Source of the DNA: Halomonas sp. HL-48
GTDB lineage: Bacteria; Pseudomonadota; Gammaproteobacteria; Pseudomonadales; Halomonadaceae
DNA length: 64,000 nt
Assembly (NCBI RefSeq): GCF_001314875.1
Contig: NZ_LJZS01000001.1
Location: 186,001 to 250,000 of the forward strand
Direction of reading: 5' to 3'
Shown: positions 4,915 to 36,453 of the stretch, in pieces
Numbering within the stretch: position 1 is the stretch's first letter
How the letters are laid out: the number at the start of each line of letters is the position of its first letter
Position numbers and translations under genes: made by a program
The notes under the pieces: model-generated
Seen by the model: only the letters and a program-made list of their open reading frames with translations
Database searches by the model: none
What the model was told of the DNA's origin: nothing

Positions 4915-4968
4915 CCGTTGCGCGCCGCCAGCCGCTGGCGGCCTTGCACCCCCAACAGAGTAAACGCC

Positions 4969-6441
4969 ATGAACGAGACACCTAGCCAGGACGCGTTGAC
5001 CATCGATCACATCGACCCGACGCTCTACAACGCCGACCTCGCCCCGCTGAAACCCGAAGACCGCACCTGGGGGGCGTTTGAAATCTTTAACGTGTGGTCC
5101 AACGACATCCAGAGCCTGTTTGGCTACACCCTCGCTGCCTCGCTGTTTCTGACCTATGGCCTGAACGGCTGGGCGGTCATGGCAGCGATTATCCTGGCGG
5201 GGGTGATCGTCATGTTTCTGGTCAACCTCACCGGTAAGCCAAGCGTCAAATACGGCATTCCCTTTCCGGTGATGGTGCGCGCCAGCATGGGCATTCGCGG
5301 CGCCAACCTCCCCGCCATGCTGCGCGCGATCGTGGGGATTTTCTGGTACGGCGTGCAGACCTATTTTGCATCGACCGCCGTGACGCTTCTACTCACCGCG
5401 CTGTTTGGCGACGGCAACGGGGCCACCTTGCTGGGGCTTTCCGCCATGGCCTGGGTCGCCTTCGTGGTCGTCTGGCTGTTCCAGATCGCCATCTTCTGGG
5501 CCGGCATCGAGCGCATCAAGCATTTTCTCAACTGGGCGGGGCCGCTGGTCTACCTGGTGATGATCGCCCTGATGGCGATTGTCTGGTACCAGGCGGGCAG
5601 CGAGCTGCTGCCGGCCATCGGCACGATTTTCAGCGGTGCCGAAGCCGAGGCAAACACTAATCCGGTGAACGCCTTCCTGGCCATTGTCGGCACCATGGTG
5701 GCCTACTTCGCGGCGGTGGTGATCAACTTTGGCGACTTTACCCGCTTTGTGAAAACCGAGCGCCAGATGAAACTGGGCAACCTGCTGGGGCTGCCGCTCA
5801 ACGTGGCGTTTTTCTCGTTTATCGCGCTGATTATCACCGCCGGCACCCTGGTACTGTTTGGCGAAGCGTTGACCAACCCCTCCGATATCGTCGAGCGCGT
5901 GGACGCCTTACCGCTGACCATCGTGGCCGCTTTGACCTTCTTCGCCGCCACCGTGGGCATCAACCTGGTGGCGAACTTCATACCGCCCGCCTACGACCTC
6001 GCCAACCTGTTTCCCAGCAAAATCAGCTTCAAGATGGGCGGCCTGATCACCGCCATCATCGCCTTCTTTGTCGGCGCGCTGTGGGTGTCGGTGATCAGCC
6101 AGATCGGCGTGCCGGGCTTTGTGAATGCGCTTGGCGCCATCGTCGCGCCGTTCTATGGCATCATCGTGGTCGACTACTACATGATCAAGCGCCAGCACCT
6201 GAACATGCAGGCGCTTTTCTCCGCCGAGCCCGACGCCGCTTACTACTACACCCAGGGCTGGAACACCCGAGCGCTGATGGCCTTCGCAGGCGCAGCGATA
6301 TTTTCGCTATCCACCGTCCTGGTGCCTGCGCTGGCCAGCCTTAACGGCTACGGCTGGCTGCTTGGCGCTGGCCTGGGTGGGCTCTTCTACTACGGTTTAA
6401 TGCGTCAGTTTAAGGCTGCGCCTACGTTGGCTGAGCAGTAG
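4969..6441 (+). CDS. NCS1 family nucleobase/allantoin permease (second)
   Basis: A 490-residue membrane carrier in the same family as its upstream neighbour but clearly diverged. It carries TWGAFEIFNVWSNDIQS near the N-terminus, VKYGIPFPVMVRASMGIRG, FWYGVQTYFAS and VVDYYMIKRQ. The track start at 4918 is replaced by the ATG at 4969 (MNETPSQ), because the 17 extra residues are low-complexity translation of the intergenic sequence. The ribosome site is weak. It is the last gene of the first purine block and is followed by a strong terminator. Two non-identical NCS1 carriers suggest two substrates, perhaps allantoin and urate or another base. Confidence 0.83.
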   Translation: MNETPSQDALTIDHIDPTLYNADLAPLKPEDRTWGAFEIFNVWSNDIQSLFGYTLAASLFLTYGLNGWAVMAAIILAGVIVMFLVNLTGKPSVKYGIPFPVMVRASMGIRGANLPAMLRAIVGIFWYGVQTYFASTAVTLLLTALFGDGNGATLLGLSAMAWVAFVVVWLFQIAIFWAGIERIKHFLNWAGPLVYLVMIALMAIVWYQAGSELLPAIGTIFSGAEAEANTNPVNAFLAIVGTMVAYFAAVVINFGDFTRFVKTERQMKLGNLLGLPLNVAFFSFIALIITAGTLVLFGEALTNPSDIVERVDALPLTIVAALTFFAATVGINLVANFIPPAYDLANLFPSKISFKMGGLITAIIAFFVGALWVSVISQIGVPGFVNALGAIVAPFYGIIVVDYYMIKRQHLNMQALFSAEPDAAYYYTQGWNTRALMAFAGAAIFSLSTVLVPALASLNGYGWLLGAGLGGLFYYGLMRQFKAAPTLAEQ

Positions 6442-6476
6442 ACAAGCGGGTCGACACTAGCTGATTAAAAGCGCAT

Positions 6477-6513
6477 ACAAGCGCCATCGGTTTTGCCGAT
6501 GGCGCTTGTTTTG
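6477..6513 (+). terminator. Rho-independent terminator after the NCS1 operon
   Basis: A perfect 14-base stem, ACAAGCGCCATCGG with its complement, a five-base loop and a T tract, 36 bases after the stop codon of the second permease. From here to 6737 the sequence becomes AT-rich and no gene is seen. The only notable item there is GCGTTATGC at 6701, discussed with the attC-like site. Confidence 0.85.
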
Positions 6514-6737
6514 GCGCGGGTGCCAATTTTACTTTAGAAACTTTTAGCAACCTCCCATAGCTATTTCAGGTAGCCCTCTTTTAGATATTAATGCTCAGCA
6601 AATTAAAAATTTTCTGTTTTCAGTACACTTTTCTTATTCAATCAGATATAAGGCTTGACACGCAAAGACATCGAAAACTCTTCAGCGTCGGTGCCTGGGG
6701 CGTTATGCTGAAGAAGGCCCAATACATTAAAGTGTCT

Positions 6738-7442
6738 TCAAAGTGATTCATCGGTAGCAGTAGCTTCTAGCATAGGGTTCGGTGTTTCACTTGGTAGCTC
6801 TTCTGCACGTTTTTGTGTGTTCCAAACTATATTAGTGATCTCTTTTACTCGATCAACCAATGGTTTAACGTCGGTCCCAAATTTACCAAGCACAACACCA
6901 GCATCACCAACAAGCCCCCAAAATCTGTCTAGATCAGCTGTTCTTTTGTGCAGTTCGCTTTGTAAACGTTCGAGTCGTTTCAAAAGACGATGTTTGTGGC
7001 CTTCATCTATTAAGTCACTTTTGGAAATGTAATCACGAAGTTCATTTACCAAGATTTGTATTCTATCGTAGTCACCTTGACTGAATTCGTAAGCGAAGCC
7101 AGATTTGAGCTTTTGCGTATACTTACGTTTGATATCTTCGATATTCAAGTGTGTCACTTGTATTTCTACTGCTTTAGAAACCGATTCCAAGTAACGTTGC
7201 AAGCTGTTGCAAGTGATATTTATACTAGAATTTGGCTCAGGAAGTTCTTCGACATTTAAGTCTAGGTGATAGGCTTGCATCACGTTATCAATCAATAGAC
7301 AAGTATGCCAAAGAACTTCATGTGTAGTTTCTGTATCTGTGCAATTACTGAGATGCTTGGTAGCGGCATCAATTATCTCTTTTAGCCCTTTGATAGGGCT
7401 TTCCTCAATTAACTCAAAGATACGTTCTTCAAAAAGTTCCAC
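6738..7442 (-). CDS. Orphan hypothetical protein, AT-rich gene
   Basis: I do not recognise this 234-residue protein. It is soluble, charged and mostly helical, with a probable coiled coil in the middle (SDLIDEGHKHRLLKRLERLQSELHKRTADLDRF) followed by a conserved-looking segment FWGLVGDAGVVLGKFGTDVKPLVDR and a short disordered tail. There is no signal peptide or membrane segment. The start is a GTG at 7442 with AAGGGG upstream. Base composition is far more AT-rich than the flanking metabolic genes, and the gene sits beside an attC-like site and a toxin-antitoxin pair, suggesting it arrived by transfer, possibly as an integron cassette. Confidence 0.6.
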   Translation of the reverse strand: MELFEERIFELIEESPIKGLKEIIDAATKHLSNCTDTETTHEVLWHTCLLIDNVMQAYHLDLNVEELPEPNSSINITCNSLQRYLESVSKAVEIQVTHLNIEDIKRKYTQKLKSGFAYEFSQGDYDRIQILVNELRDYISKSDLIDEGHKHRLLKRLERLQSELHKRTADLDRFWGLVGDAGVVLGKFGTDVKPLVDRVKEITNIVWNTQKRAEELPSETPNPMLEATATDESL

Positions 7443-7517
7443 GTGTTAAACCCCTTAAGATATCTTTTAATTCTATATGGGAGCATATTGGCCATGCATC
7501 AAGGAAAAAGAAAAACA

Positions 7518-7627
7518 ACCTAACAAACTGCGTAAAACAGATTCGCAACGCGTGGCATTTTTACTATTCGTTGATTTTAATGGTTAAAGTTATGTGTGGT
7601 TGCTCATCCCTTAACAGAGCGTTAGCA
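7518..7627 (+). mobile_element. attC-like integron recombination site
   Basis: This 110-base non-coding stretch lies between the orphan gene and brnA. It begins ACCTAACAAACTGCG and ends ACAGAGCGTTAGCA. The outer arms CTAAC/GTTAG pair, as do inner CTG/CAG and GCAAC/GTTGC arms, and the left inner box (CTGCGTAA) carries extra unpaired bases relative to the right (TTAACAG), as attC sites do. The left end fits the RYYYAAC core; the right end (GTTAGCA) fits GTTRRRY at six of seven positions. AACGCGTGGC also occurs in Vibrio-type attC repeats as I remember them. Its right end lies two bases from the brnA stop codon. No integrase gene is in the window. Confidence 0.6.
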
Positions 7628-7629
7628 CT

Positions 7630-7902
7630 TCAGGTTCGACGGTTGTCGTTCACATCATCCGCAAGCCAAGCCTTGATCAGTGACTGGTAGGGCATATCTC
7701 GCTTGTTAGCTTCGATTTTGATCCGATCAAGCAGGGTTTCCGGCAAGCGGAGTGAAATAGTCTTGGTTGAGGGCTTCAGCTTCGAGAAAGAAACAGATTT
7801 TGCTTGGCTCCAGTCCAAATAGTCGGAGGAATCATGGGTTTCCCAGAATTCTCGTTCTTCGGCCTCATTCTTGAACTCAGGCATCTTTTTTAGCTTGCTC
7901 AT
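7630..7902 (-). CDS. brnA: BrnA-type antitoxin (CopG/ribbon-helix-helix)
   Basis: A 90-residue protein. The first half (EFKNEAEEREFWETHDSSDYLDW) is the acidic, toxin-embracing part seen in BrnA antitoxins. The second half (KTISLRLPETLLDRIKIEANKRDMPYQSLIKAWL) is a ribbon-helix-helix DNA-binding domain. Its start overlaps the end of brnT by 26 bases, so the two are translationally coupled, with toxin first as is standard for brnTA. It probably neutralises BrnT and represses the shared promoter through the TGTATAT palindrome upstream. The stop codon abuts the attC-like site. Confidence 0.85.
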   Translation of the reverse strand: MSKLKKMPEFKNEAEEREFWETHDSSDYLDWSQAKSVSFSKLKPSTKTISLRLPETLLDRIKIEANKRDMPYQSLIKAWLADDVNDNRRT

Positions 7903-8188
7903 AAACAGCCCTCTCTTTTCGGTGCATATCGCGAGCGGAGATCACCCGAACCAGCGTACCGCCCTGCCTCAGTGTAAAGGTGATGTGGAGCAATCTCTCA
8001 TCATCTGTTTCACCAAGGGCATGAAAACGGGCCTCAGTCTGGCTGTGCTTGGGGTCTTCCAGCACCAGAAGCGGCTCATTAAAGAAAATTTCTTCCGCTT
8101 CGGATTGGTTGACGCCGTGCTTCTCTGCGTTCTTGCGAGAGTTACCAGCATCCCAATCAAATCCAGTGACATGCGCCCAATTGATCAT
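7877..8188 (-). CDS. brnT: BrnT-type ribonuclease toxin
   Basis: A 103-residue protein of the BrnT (RelE-like fold) family. Hallmarks are FDWDAGNSRKNAEKHGV near the start, EAEEIFFNEPLLVLED, RFHALGETDDERLLHITFTLR and VRVISARDMHRKERAVYE. BrnT toxins cleave RNA and block translation until bound by BrnA. All core segments are present, so the gene looks intact. With brnA it forms a self-contained module of about 560 bases with its own promoter palindrome, inside an AT-rich islet. Confidence 0.87.
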   Translation of the reverse strand: MINWAHVTGFDWDAGNSRKNAEKHGVNQSEAEEIFFNEPLLVLEDPKHSQTEARFHALGETDDERLLHITFTLRQGGTLVRVISARDMHRKERAVYEQAKKDA

Positions 8189-8191
8189 AAT

Positions 8192-8212
8192 TGTATATTA
8201 TCAGCATATACA
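8192..8212. promoter_or_regulatory. Inverted repeat TGTATAT-N7-ATATACA, candidate BrnA operator
   Basis: Perfect seven-base arms separated by seven bases lie directly upstream of the brnT start codon at 8188. Ribbon-helix-helix antitoxins normally autorepress from such repeats, so this is the likely BrnA/BrnTA operator. No other palindrome is visible in this short gap. Confidence 0.55.
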
Positions 8213-8283
8213 CATGCGTCAATAGGAGCTAACCAGTGGAAAAGCACAAAACAGGTGCCAAGGTAGACGAGCTGCCCCACCCA

Positions 8284-9771
8284 CTAGTGATTCTTCTCCA
8301 GCGCCAGATGATTATCTATTTCCTTTATCTTGTCTTCGGTGTGGTGATTGACGTAGAGCACGGTGGTCTCTTTGCCTTCACAAATTTTCTCGATAAGCGC
8401 TAGCACCAGTTGGCGGTTCATATCGTCCAGGCCGAGGCAGGGCTCGTCTAGAATCAACAGCGGCGGGTGTTTCACCATGGCGCGGGCGATGAGTAGTAGA
8501 CGCTGGTCGCCGTAAGAGAGTTTGTTAAAGGGCTGATCGGCGCGCTCTTGCATGCCCAGTAGCTCGAGCCATTGGTCGGCGATTTTTTTCTGATGATCGG
8601 TGGCTTTTGTGTACACGCCGATGCTGTCGTAAAAGCCTGAAATAATCACATTTTTGCAGCTGGTGCTGACGCGATACTCCCATTGCAGGGCGGTGGAGAC
8701 ATAGCCGATAAACTGCTTGATCTGCCAGATGCTTTCGCCGTTACCGCGCTGGAAGCCAAACACAAAAATATCGTTGGTATAGCACTGGGGATGATCCCCC
8801 GTGATCAGAGACAAAACGCAGGTTTTGCCACTACCGTTAGGGCCACTCAATTGCCAGTGCTGGCCCTGCTCTATCGTCCAATCGAGTTTATCGACAATGA
8901 CGGTATCGCCGTATTGGATCGTCGCTTGTTTGAGCTTCACTAACGGCTGGCTGGGGTCGAGGGCGGGTAATTTAGTGGCTGGATCGGCCTCAGGCAGGCT
9001 TAGGTCGGCGGTTTTCAGATGCAGCAATTGGTACAGCTCATTGAAGGCGGCTTCATCCTGACGGTCTACCGTGAATGCTAATCGCCCACTGTCTCCCCGC
9101 TTCTTATCCCCTCTCTTTTTCTCCAAGCGCTCTTTATCTAGATAAGCCACATGGGTGATAAAGTCCGGCATCTCATCAAAGCGATTTAGCACCATCACCA
9201 TGGGAACGGTGTCGATGATGGAGGCGAGATGGGCTTGCAGCATGGCGAGGGTGTCGACGTCCAAGCCATCAAACGGCTCGTCTAAAATCAGCAAATCCGG
9301 CTTGCTCGACAATGCGCGAATCAACATGACTTTGCGGGTTTCGCCGGTGGAGAGCTTACGAAAAGCGCGGTCGAGTAGCTTGGTCAGCCCGAACTTTTCG
9401 ACCAGCTCGCTTGCAAGCTCAAGGTCTCGGCACTGCTCGAAAATCATTTCACTAACGGGGGTGCCGAGTGAAATGACATCCATGATATCGGCATCGTCTT
9501 TTTTCAGCTCTTTGGCGATAAGCTCGGCTTGCGCTTCGAAAGAGACCAAACCGACATGTTTGGGCAGCCCTTGAACACTGCCCGCTTCAATTTTGCCAAC
9601 GCCCGCCAGCGCCGCCGCCAGCGCCGATTTGCCTGAGCCATTGGTGCCAGTGATGACCCAATGCTGGTGGGGCTCGATGGTCCAATCAATCTCGCTTAGG
9701 GTGAAGCGATCATCAAAACTGATCGTCGCTTTGTTTAGCTGAATACGCGCTAAGCGGTTTGAAGACTCCAT
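8284..9771 (-). CDS. modF: ModF-like ABC ATPase with two nucleotide-binding domains
   Basis: A 495-residue soluble protein with two ABC cassettes in tandem. The first has Walker A GTNGSGKSAL, signature LSTGETRKV and Walker B LLILDEPFDGLDVD. The second has GPNGSGKTCVL, LSYGDQRLLLIARA and LLILDEPCLGLDD. There is no membrane domain and no permease or binding protein beside it, which matches the ModF/PhrA type (named from the molybdate locus in E. coli; the role is poorly understood). The assignment is by architecture and length, close to E. coli ModF. An Uup/ABC-F translation factor is less likely because the linker is short and lacks the charged ABC-F insert. Confidence 0.7.
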   Translation of the reverse strand: MESSNRLARIQLNKATISFDDRFTLSEIDWTIEPHQHWVITGTNGSGKSALAAALAGVGKIEAGSVQGLPKHVGLVSFEAQAELIAKELKKDDADIMDVISLGTPVSEMIFEQCRDLELASELVEKFGLTKLLDRAFRKLSTGETRKVMLIRALSSKPDLLILDEPFDGLDVDTLAMLQAHLASIIDTVPMVMVLNRFDEMPDFITHVAYLDKERLEKKRGDKKRGDSGRLAFTVDRQDEAAFNELYQLLHLKTADLSLPEADPATKLPALDPSQPLVKLKQATIQYGDTVIVDKLDWTIEQGQHWQLSGPNGSGKTCVLSLITGDHPQCYTNDIFVFGFQRGNGESIWQIKQFIGYVSTALQWEYRVSTSCKNVIISGFYDSIGVYTKATDHQKKIADQWLELLGMQERADQPFNKLSYGDQRLLLIARAMVKHPPLLILDEPCLGLDDMNRQLVLALIEKICEGKETTVLYVNHHTEDKIKEIDNHLALEKNH

Positions 9772-35855: not shown

Positions 35856-35932
35856 TGGCGGACCGGACGAGACTCGAACTCGCGACCTCCGGCGTGACAG
35901 GCCGGCATTCTAACCAACTGAACTACCGGTCC
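35856..35932 (-). tRNA. tRNA-Asp (GTC), copy 3 in transcription order
   Basis: The reverse complement reads GGACCGGTAGTTCAGTTGG.., with anticodon GTC in the loop of GCCGGCCTGTCACGCCGG, T-loop GTTCGAGTC and encoded CCA end; 77 bases. The sequence appears identical to the copies at 36120 and 36238. Last of five tRNA genes on the minus strand. Confidence 0.97.
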
Positions 35933-36001
35933 ACGGTATAGCACTACATCGATCAAGGGCTTGCATCGTTTCCATTTAATCGCGGCGGTTGCGCTTTCAA
36001 A

Positions 36002-36077
36002 TGGTGGGTGGTACTGGGTTCGAACCAGTGACCCCCAGCTTGTAAGGCTGGTGCTCTCCCAACTGAGCTAACCACCC
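36002..36077 (-). tRNA. tRNA-Val (TAC), copy 2
   Basis: The reverse complement reads GGGTGGTTAGCTCAGTTGGG.., with anticodon TAC in ACCAGCCTTACAAGCTGG, T-loop GGTTCGAACC and encoded CCA; 76 bases. It appears identical to the copy at 36378. Lies between two Asp genes. Confidence 0.97.
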
Positions 36078-36119
36078 ATACGGTTGGCGAACCAACACTG
36101 CTACACAGCGTGTTTATCG

Positions 36120-36196
36120 TGGCGGACCGGACGAGACTCGAACTCGCGACCTCCGGCGTGACAGGCCGGCATTCTAACCAACTGAACTACCGGTCC
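36120..36196 (-). tRNA. tRNA-Asp (GTC), copy 2
   Basis: The same 77-base cloverleaf as the other two Asp genes: anticodon GTC, CCA encoded. Separated from the preceding Asp copy by 41 bases. Confidence 0.97.
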
Positions 36197-36237
36197 ACAG
36201 GCGATAAAAGCGTGAAAACGGACACATGAAGCGACGA

Positions 36238-36314
36238 TGGCGGACCGGACGAGACTCGAACTCGCGACCTCCGGCGTGACAGGCCGGCATTCTAACCAAC
36301 TGAACTACCGGTCC
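36238..36314 (-). tRNA. tRNA-Asp (GTC), copy 1
   Basis: 77 bases with anticodon GTC, encoded CCA and seven-base acceptor stem GGACCGG/CCGGTCC. Second gene of the operon after tRNA-Val. Confidence 0.97.
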
Positions 36315-36377
36315 GCTGTATCGTGTTGCTAACGCTGTGCGTCTTCTTTACTGCGACGTTTCCAGATCATCATGCAA

Positions 36378-36453
36378 TGGTGGGTGGTACTGGGTTCGAA
36401 CCAGTGACCCCCAGCTTGTAAGGCTGGTGCTCTCCCAACTGAGCTAACCACCC
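36378..36453 (-). tRNA. tRNA-Val (TAC), copy 1
   Basis: First gene of the minus-strand Val-Asp-Asp-Val-Asp array; 76 bases, anticodon TAC, encoded CCA. A clear sigma-70 promoter lies just upstream at 36473-36500. Confidence 0.97.

Follow-up and report, generated by a model that had tools for sequence, protein, structure and literature searches.

Clusters of attC sites lacking an integron integrase (CALINs, as named in IntegronFinder) are reported by version 2.0 of this program with a default threshold of two attCs, though CALIN cases with a single attC can be true (PMC9024848). Three BrnT/BrnA cassettes have been described in a CALIN of Halorhodospira halochloris (PMC7923331), and parDE3 of the Vibrio cholerae superintegron is an antisense cassette (PMC11014356). 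BrnTA in a CALIN, antisense toxin-antitoxin cassettes and single-attC CALINs are already on record, while our literature search found no paper on this subject in which attC, integron and Halomonas come together.

The locus analyzed here lies in a 64,000-nt stretch (the window, G000:C5:186001-250000) of the 3.5-Mb draft genome of Halomonas sp. HL-48, assembled in 34 contigs. Like a CALIN, it has an attC with cassettes, no intI nearby and a decayed intI in the genome. The difference is that the islet has only one intact attC, against the default of two, and a tool requiring two attCs would therefore by default not report the site. The intact attC has the size class and layout of the VCR-type attCs from Vibrionaceae superintegrons, but it has diverged from them in sequence, belongs to a host of another order and stands alone rather than in a long array. 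As in H. halochloris, a type II toxin-antitoxin system of the same family forms a cassette without intI; here, unlike there, the operon opposes its attC in direction, an arrangement that recurs in other species. The presumed promoter of the toxin-antitoxin operon faces against the array, as in the parDE3 cassette, with the difference that an orphan gene outside the toxin-antitoxin systems also lies in antisense, and does so in two distant hosts.

The conserved left flank of the islet is a gene of an NCS1-family permease (4918-6441, plus strand; Pfam Transp_cyt_pur 3.5e-85, TIGR00800 3.4e-78), and the conserved right flank is a gene of a modF-like molybdate ABC ATPase (8284-9771, minus strand; NF008186 2.9e-153). 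The permease gene ends with a terminator hairpin (6476-6511), the same in congeners G022 and G093; a sub-threshold Rfam match to the SpF25 sRNA at 6475-6560 was rejected, being this hairpin instead. The DNA common to most congeners has its left limit at 6509-6520 (6603-6614 in G093 and G086). The GC content of the islet is about 37-48%, compared to 52-62% in the surroundings, in agreement with the first-pass annotation, which had described an AT-rich islet. Its attC-type elements are an intact site (7518-7627), a candidate for a degraded one (6653-6708) and a stub (8227-8238).

In the intact element (plus strand), all the paired motifs quoted in the first-pass annotation are found. The outer boxes R'' (ACCTAAC, 7518-7524) and R' (GTTAGCA, 7621-7627) pair with each other, as do the inner arms CTG (7528-7530) with CAG (7615-7617) and GCAAC (7545-7549) with GTTGC (7599-7603); the segment AACGCGTGGC is located at 7547-7556, and the crossover is placed at G7621^T7622. 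R'' fits the pattern RYYYAAC fully, and R' matches the GTTRR core of GTTRRRY, with the last two letters off. Four-letter core boxes are common by chance.

The covariance model R1 was trained on eleven repeats of about 126 nt from nine congeners, found by DNA similarity and aligned without the window, with the R/L-box structure written by hand. In the training alignment, 85% of cells are paired, and in ten pairs both partners vary together (21 cells of this kind); none of 500 shuffles reached pairing and covariation counts as high, and when the partners are slid by 1-3 columns, the pairing falls to 29-45%. Exchanges are clear in the outer L arms of the family (CTG/CAG, GCG/CGC, CAA/TTG). A covariance model had been proposed earlier as a check, and R1 scores 7518-7627 at 75.2 bits, far above noise (E 2.1e-19 for the window, 1.2e-17 for the whole genome, where this is its sole match). 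The same repeat, sought in relatives as had also been proposed, is found in 40 of 82 congeners, the remaining 42 having no R1 match at E <= 0.1. Adjacent R1 sites at most 20 kb apart lie on the same strand in all 19 pairs, as in cassette arrays, and the training sites adjoin intI or its fragments in G021, G035 and G033. A model built from these congeners also recovers attCs of Aliivibrio at 40-50 bits.

By these comparisons, 7518-7627 is a genuine attC of the AT-rich, genus-wide class of about 126 nt. At 110 nt it is shorter than the class, lacking about 15 nt of the terminal region and some of the inner stem pairs, yet 19 of 24 stem pairs are retained (counting G-T on the bottom strand), which together with the family covariation speaks for complementary L''/L' arms. 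Folding of the bottom strand, the other check that had been suggested, was uninformative: unconstrained folding of either strand is no better than that of shuffles (z = +1.3 and +1.1), so this attC is unrecognisable from energy alone, and constrained DNA folding was not diagnostic. With its reduced length, its missing inner pairs and a folding on both strands no better than that of shuffles, the site probably makes a weak or dead recombination substrate. An Rfam search reached no attC family. A rule-based attC finder, useful for short GC-rich sites, gave zero matches in the window at its cut-off, and as it misses this site, the zero was not counted against the attC.

Both genes of the islet had been proposed to be captured cassettes, and relatives of each indeed sit between attCs. 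The second cassette (7622-8238, plus strand) contains brnTA, previously noted as a toxin-antitoxin pair and confirmed by Pfam: the brnA antitoxin gene (CopG/RHH; 7630-7902, minus strand; PF12441 9.3e-37) and the brnT ribonuclease toxin gene (7877-8188, minus strand; PF04365 2.2e-24). Its limits follow from a DNA search of 82 congeners. Homology starts at 7615-7624, at the crossover, in G074, G071, G015, G079, G008, G017, G097 and G020 (starts were counted in loci reaching the crossover side, eight or more) and stops at 8238 in G071 and G015, where the segment 7619-8238 lies between two complete GC-rich attCs. The BrnT protein is 99% identical to the one of G074 and 93% identical to the cassette copies of G071 and G015. 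Thus brnTA, judged by comparison of its limits, is an integron cassette, whose attC is truncated in the window. GCTAAC at 8228-8233, suggested earlier as an attC motif beyond brnTA, is the first part of the cassette's own attC; it belongs to an R''/L'' stub (AGCTAACCAGTG, 8227-8238, plus strand) rather than to an intact site, the rest being gone at the modF end, while a full attC occupies the same place in G071 and G015.

The first cassette (6703-7621, plus strand) contains the orphan gene (6738-7442, minus strand; 234 aa, with relatives at 61% and 46%) and the intact attC, the likely limits being derived from the G^TT crossovers. Its left end is less clear. The motif GCGTTATGC is present at 6700-6708, where an attC right end had been claimed, and occurs nowhere else in the 64 kb, but it does not belong to an intact attC. 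The segment 6653-6708 (plus strand) is the best match of the R2 model in the window (13.5 bits, E 0.3; E 0.014 in a 3-kb search), and it is a probable degraded short attC at best, which would close the preceding cassette. It ends with GGGGCGTTATGC, as does the attC found before the relatives of the orphan gene in Aliivibrio and Endozoicomonas; in Aliivibrio this attC ends with GCGTTATGC, as window positions 6700-6708 do. Given this match to the relatives' flanking attC ends, and with the weak R2 match, the left limit of the cassette is most likely G6702^T6703.

The orphan gene has no relative in the 82 congeners, so the first cassette has no within-genus comparison. A single-sequence search of its protein in GTDB contigs, plasmids and phages found no relative; relatives were retrieved in an alignment search with a two-sequence alignment. 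Among 392 genomes of the order, one relative was found, in Endozoicomonas sp. ISHI1 (G243; 47%), placed in the same order as the source genome, and the alignment search recovered it (46%) and added a second one, in Aliivibrio sp. 1S175 (61%). Both sit between attCs. The Aliivibrio contig has seven attCs in one direction, and the relative, lying within this array of VCR-type attCs, opposes them, whereas the other larger genes follow them; the Endozoicomonas relative is sense to its attCs. Judged by these two relatives, the orphan belongs to a cassette gene family, although in the window its cassette has a weak left limit. Relatives of the orphan protein (about 50%) were also observed on IMG/VR contigs (L180-L184); no recognisable attC was found near them, so members of the family also occur outside integrons. 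Conservation within the family is in the C-terminal half (FAYEFSQGD, DLDRFWG, GDAGVV.GKFG). The orphan protein matches no Pfam, NCBIfam or PADLOC family at a meaningful level, and its PHROGs matches are marginal. Its structure model is all-helical, with nine helices (mean pLDDT 74, pTM 0.48), and has no match in PDB below E = 1, so we propose no function.

That both genes run opposite to the attC direction, as the first-pass annotation had pointed out, is real and recurs in relatives. The brnTA operon is antisense to the attCs in G071 and G015, same as in the window, and the orphan relative is reversed in Aliivibrio. By this recurrence across genomes, the reversed gene orientation appears to be an inherited feature.

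No integrase had been noticed in view, which had led to the suggestion of a CALIN-like cluster or a remnant. Indeed, there is no intact intI in the genome and none near the islet, but a truncated intI is found on another contig (G000:C29:407-786, L072). It aligns with the upstream region and the first codons of the intact intI of G035, G024 and G001, retains 45 residues (87% identical to intact intI) and is syntenic with the intact intI of the congeners, beside a TPP-riboswitch-like leader and tenA (both named by eye). An intI above the cut-off was found in 21 of 58 relatives tested. The intI loci of the genus are either on the tenA side or at a second conserved locus, the remnant of the source genome being the tenA one. 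The islet differs from a complete integron, where functional intI and attI lie beside the cassettes: what is left of intI is a fragment, and it lies on another contig.

A comparison with relatives lacking the islet, also proposed earlier, shows that occupancy of the permease-modF interval varies. In G022 the interval is empty, with nothing but the terminator and about 30 bases between the ends of the permease and modF genes, while other cassettes are found in G008, G017, G005, G100 and G003; in these five and in G074 the interval has attCs directed to modF. Where brnTA or its remnant survives, it adjoins modF, and in G093 the interval has a brnTA remnant only. In six congeners (L139, L140, L147, L143, L141, L142), the brnTA remnant is joined to modF by the same junction (7940|8283), which points to one old deletion. 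No intI trace was seen in the interval among the congener loci examined. Across the genus (L138, L146, L140, L142, L139, L137), a variable cassette locus free of any integrase lies at the NCS1 permease/modF junction.

The islet is almost certainly a decayed integrase-less integron cassette cluster (a remnant of the CALIN/SALIN type), left behind at a secondary site of the chromosome. Its two cassettes (the antisense orphan gene with the AT-rich attC, and antisense brnTA with the truncated attC) would have been placed between the NCS1 permease and modF by an integron integrase, presumably acting through the folded bottom strand of attC recombined at G^TT. The intI gene at the other chromosomal place, next to the TPP-riboswitch-like leader and tenA, has meanwhile decayed to about 45 recognisable codons, and the cassettes would now be immobile. 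The direction of both genes, opposite to that of the attC, makes it likely that each cassette is expressed from a promoter of its own; a promoter scan yielded no more sites than shuffles, so that these promoters are presumed rather than located. The opposite reading, which takes the attC-like features for a palindrome arisen by chance and the islet for an ordinary toxin-antitoxin island from another element, would agree with the unremarkable folding energy, but it deserves practically no credence, being refuted by E = 1.2e-17 from a model that never saw the site, by the family covariation, by the common crossover limit and by the relatives lying between attCs.

The way in which the cassettes arrived is harder to decide. 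An attG is a genomic G^TT site for the insertion of a single cassette. The term is used in PMC11023631 and PMC12901181. Cassettes entering singly by IntI-catalyzed attC x attG recombination (SALIN-type), and not as an array from an integron, would account for the single intact attC, the absence of intI from the interval of any congener examined, the existence of an empty site (G022) and the different cassettes carried there by different species. On the other hand, at least three attCs follow one another here in several congeners, so the site behaves as an array, and the presence of brnTA at the same place in many species may reflect an old block with members lost; single entry has a substantial chance of being right, if one short of even. 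The arrays, all in one orientation in several species, could instead go back to a complete integron that once occupied the permease-modF site and lost intI and most cassettes. This we find improbable, given no intI trace in the congener loci examined and the location of the genus intI at other loci, with the source remnant at the tenA one.

As a decayed cassette cluster, the islet provides a natural example, with clear limits, of integron cassettes persisting after the death of the integrase, and relatives show the states in between (intact or broken intI, arrays, remnants of brnTA, the empty site). The islet also suggests that cassette genes may be reversed by inheritance rather than by accident, which bears on the expression and upkeep of cassettes far from the integron promoter. 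What might be new to a specialist is the orientation conserved between Aliivibrio and the source genome, together with the use of the permease-modF junction throughout the genus. A more speculative proposal, which we regard as rather unlikely as a whole, is that this junction is a stable docking site for repeated cassette insertion in one genus away from the integrase, and that antisense cassettes with their own promoters (brnTA, the orphan family) are kept in this orientation across orders, since, being independent of the integron promoter, they are fit for life outside the integron.

Elsewhere in the window, five tandem tRNA genes, of two types by score, lie on the minus strand at 35859-36453. 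The same genome has more clusters of short GC-rich attCs, each on one strand (C3:614-4466, C8:11174-13499, C27:110928-111886 and C30:32843-34188).
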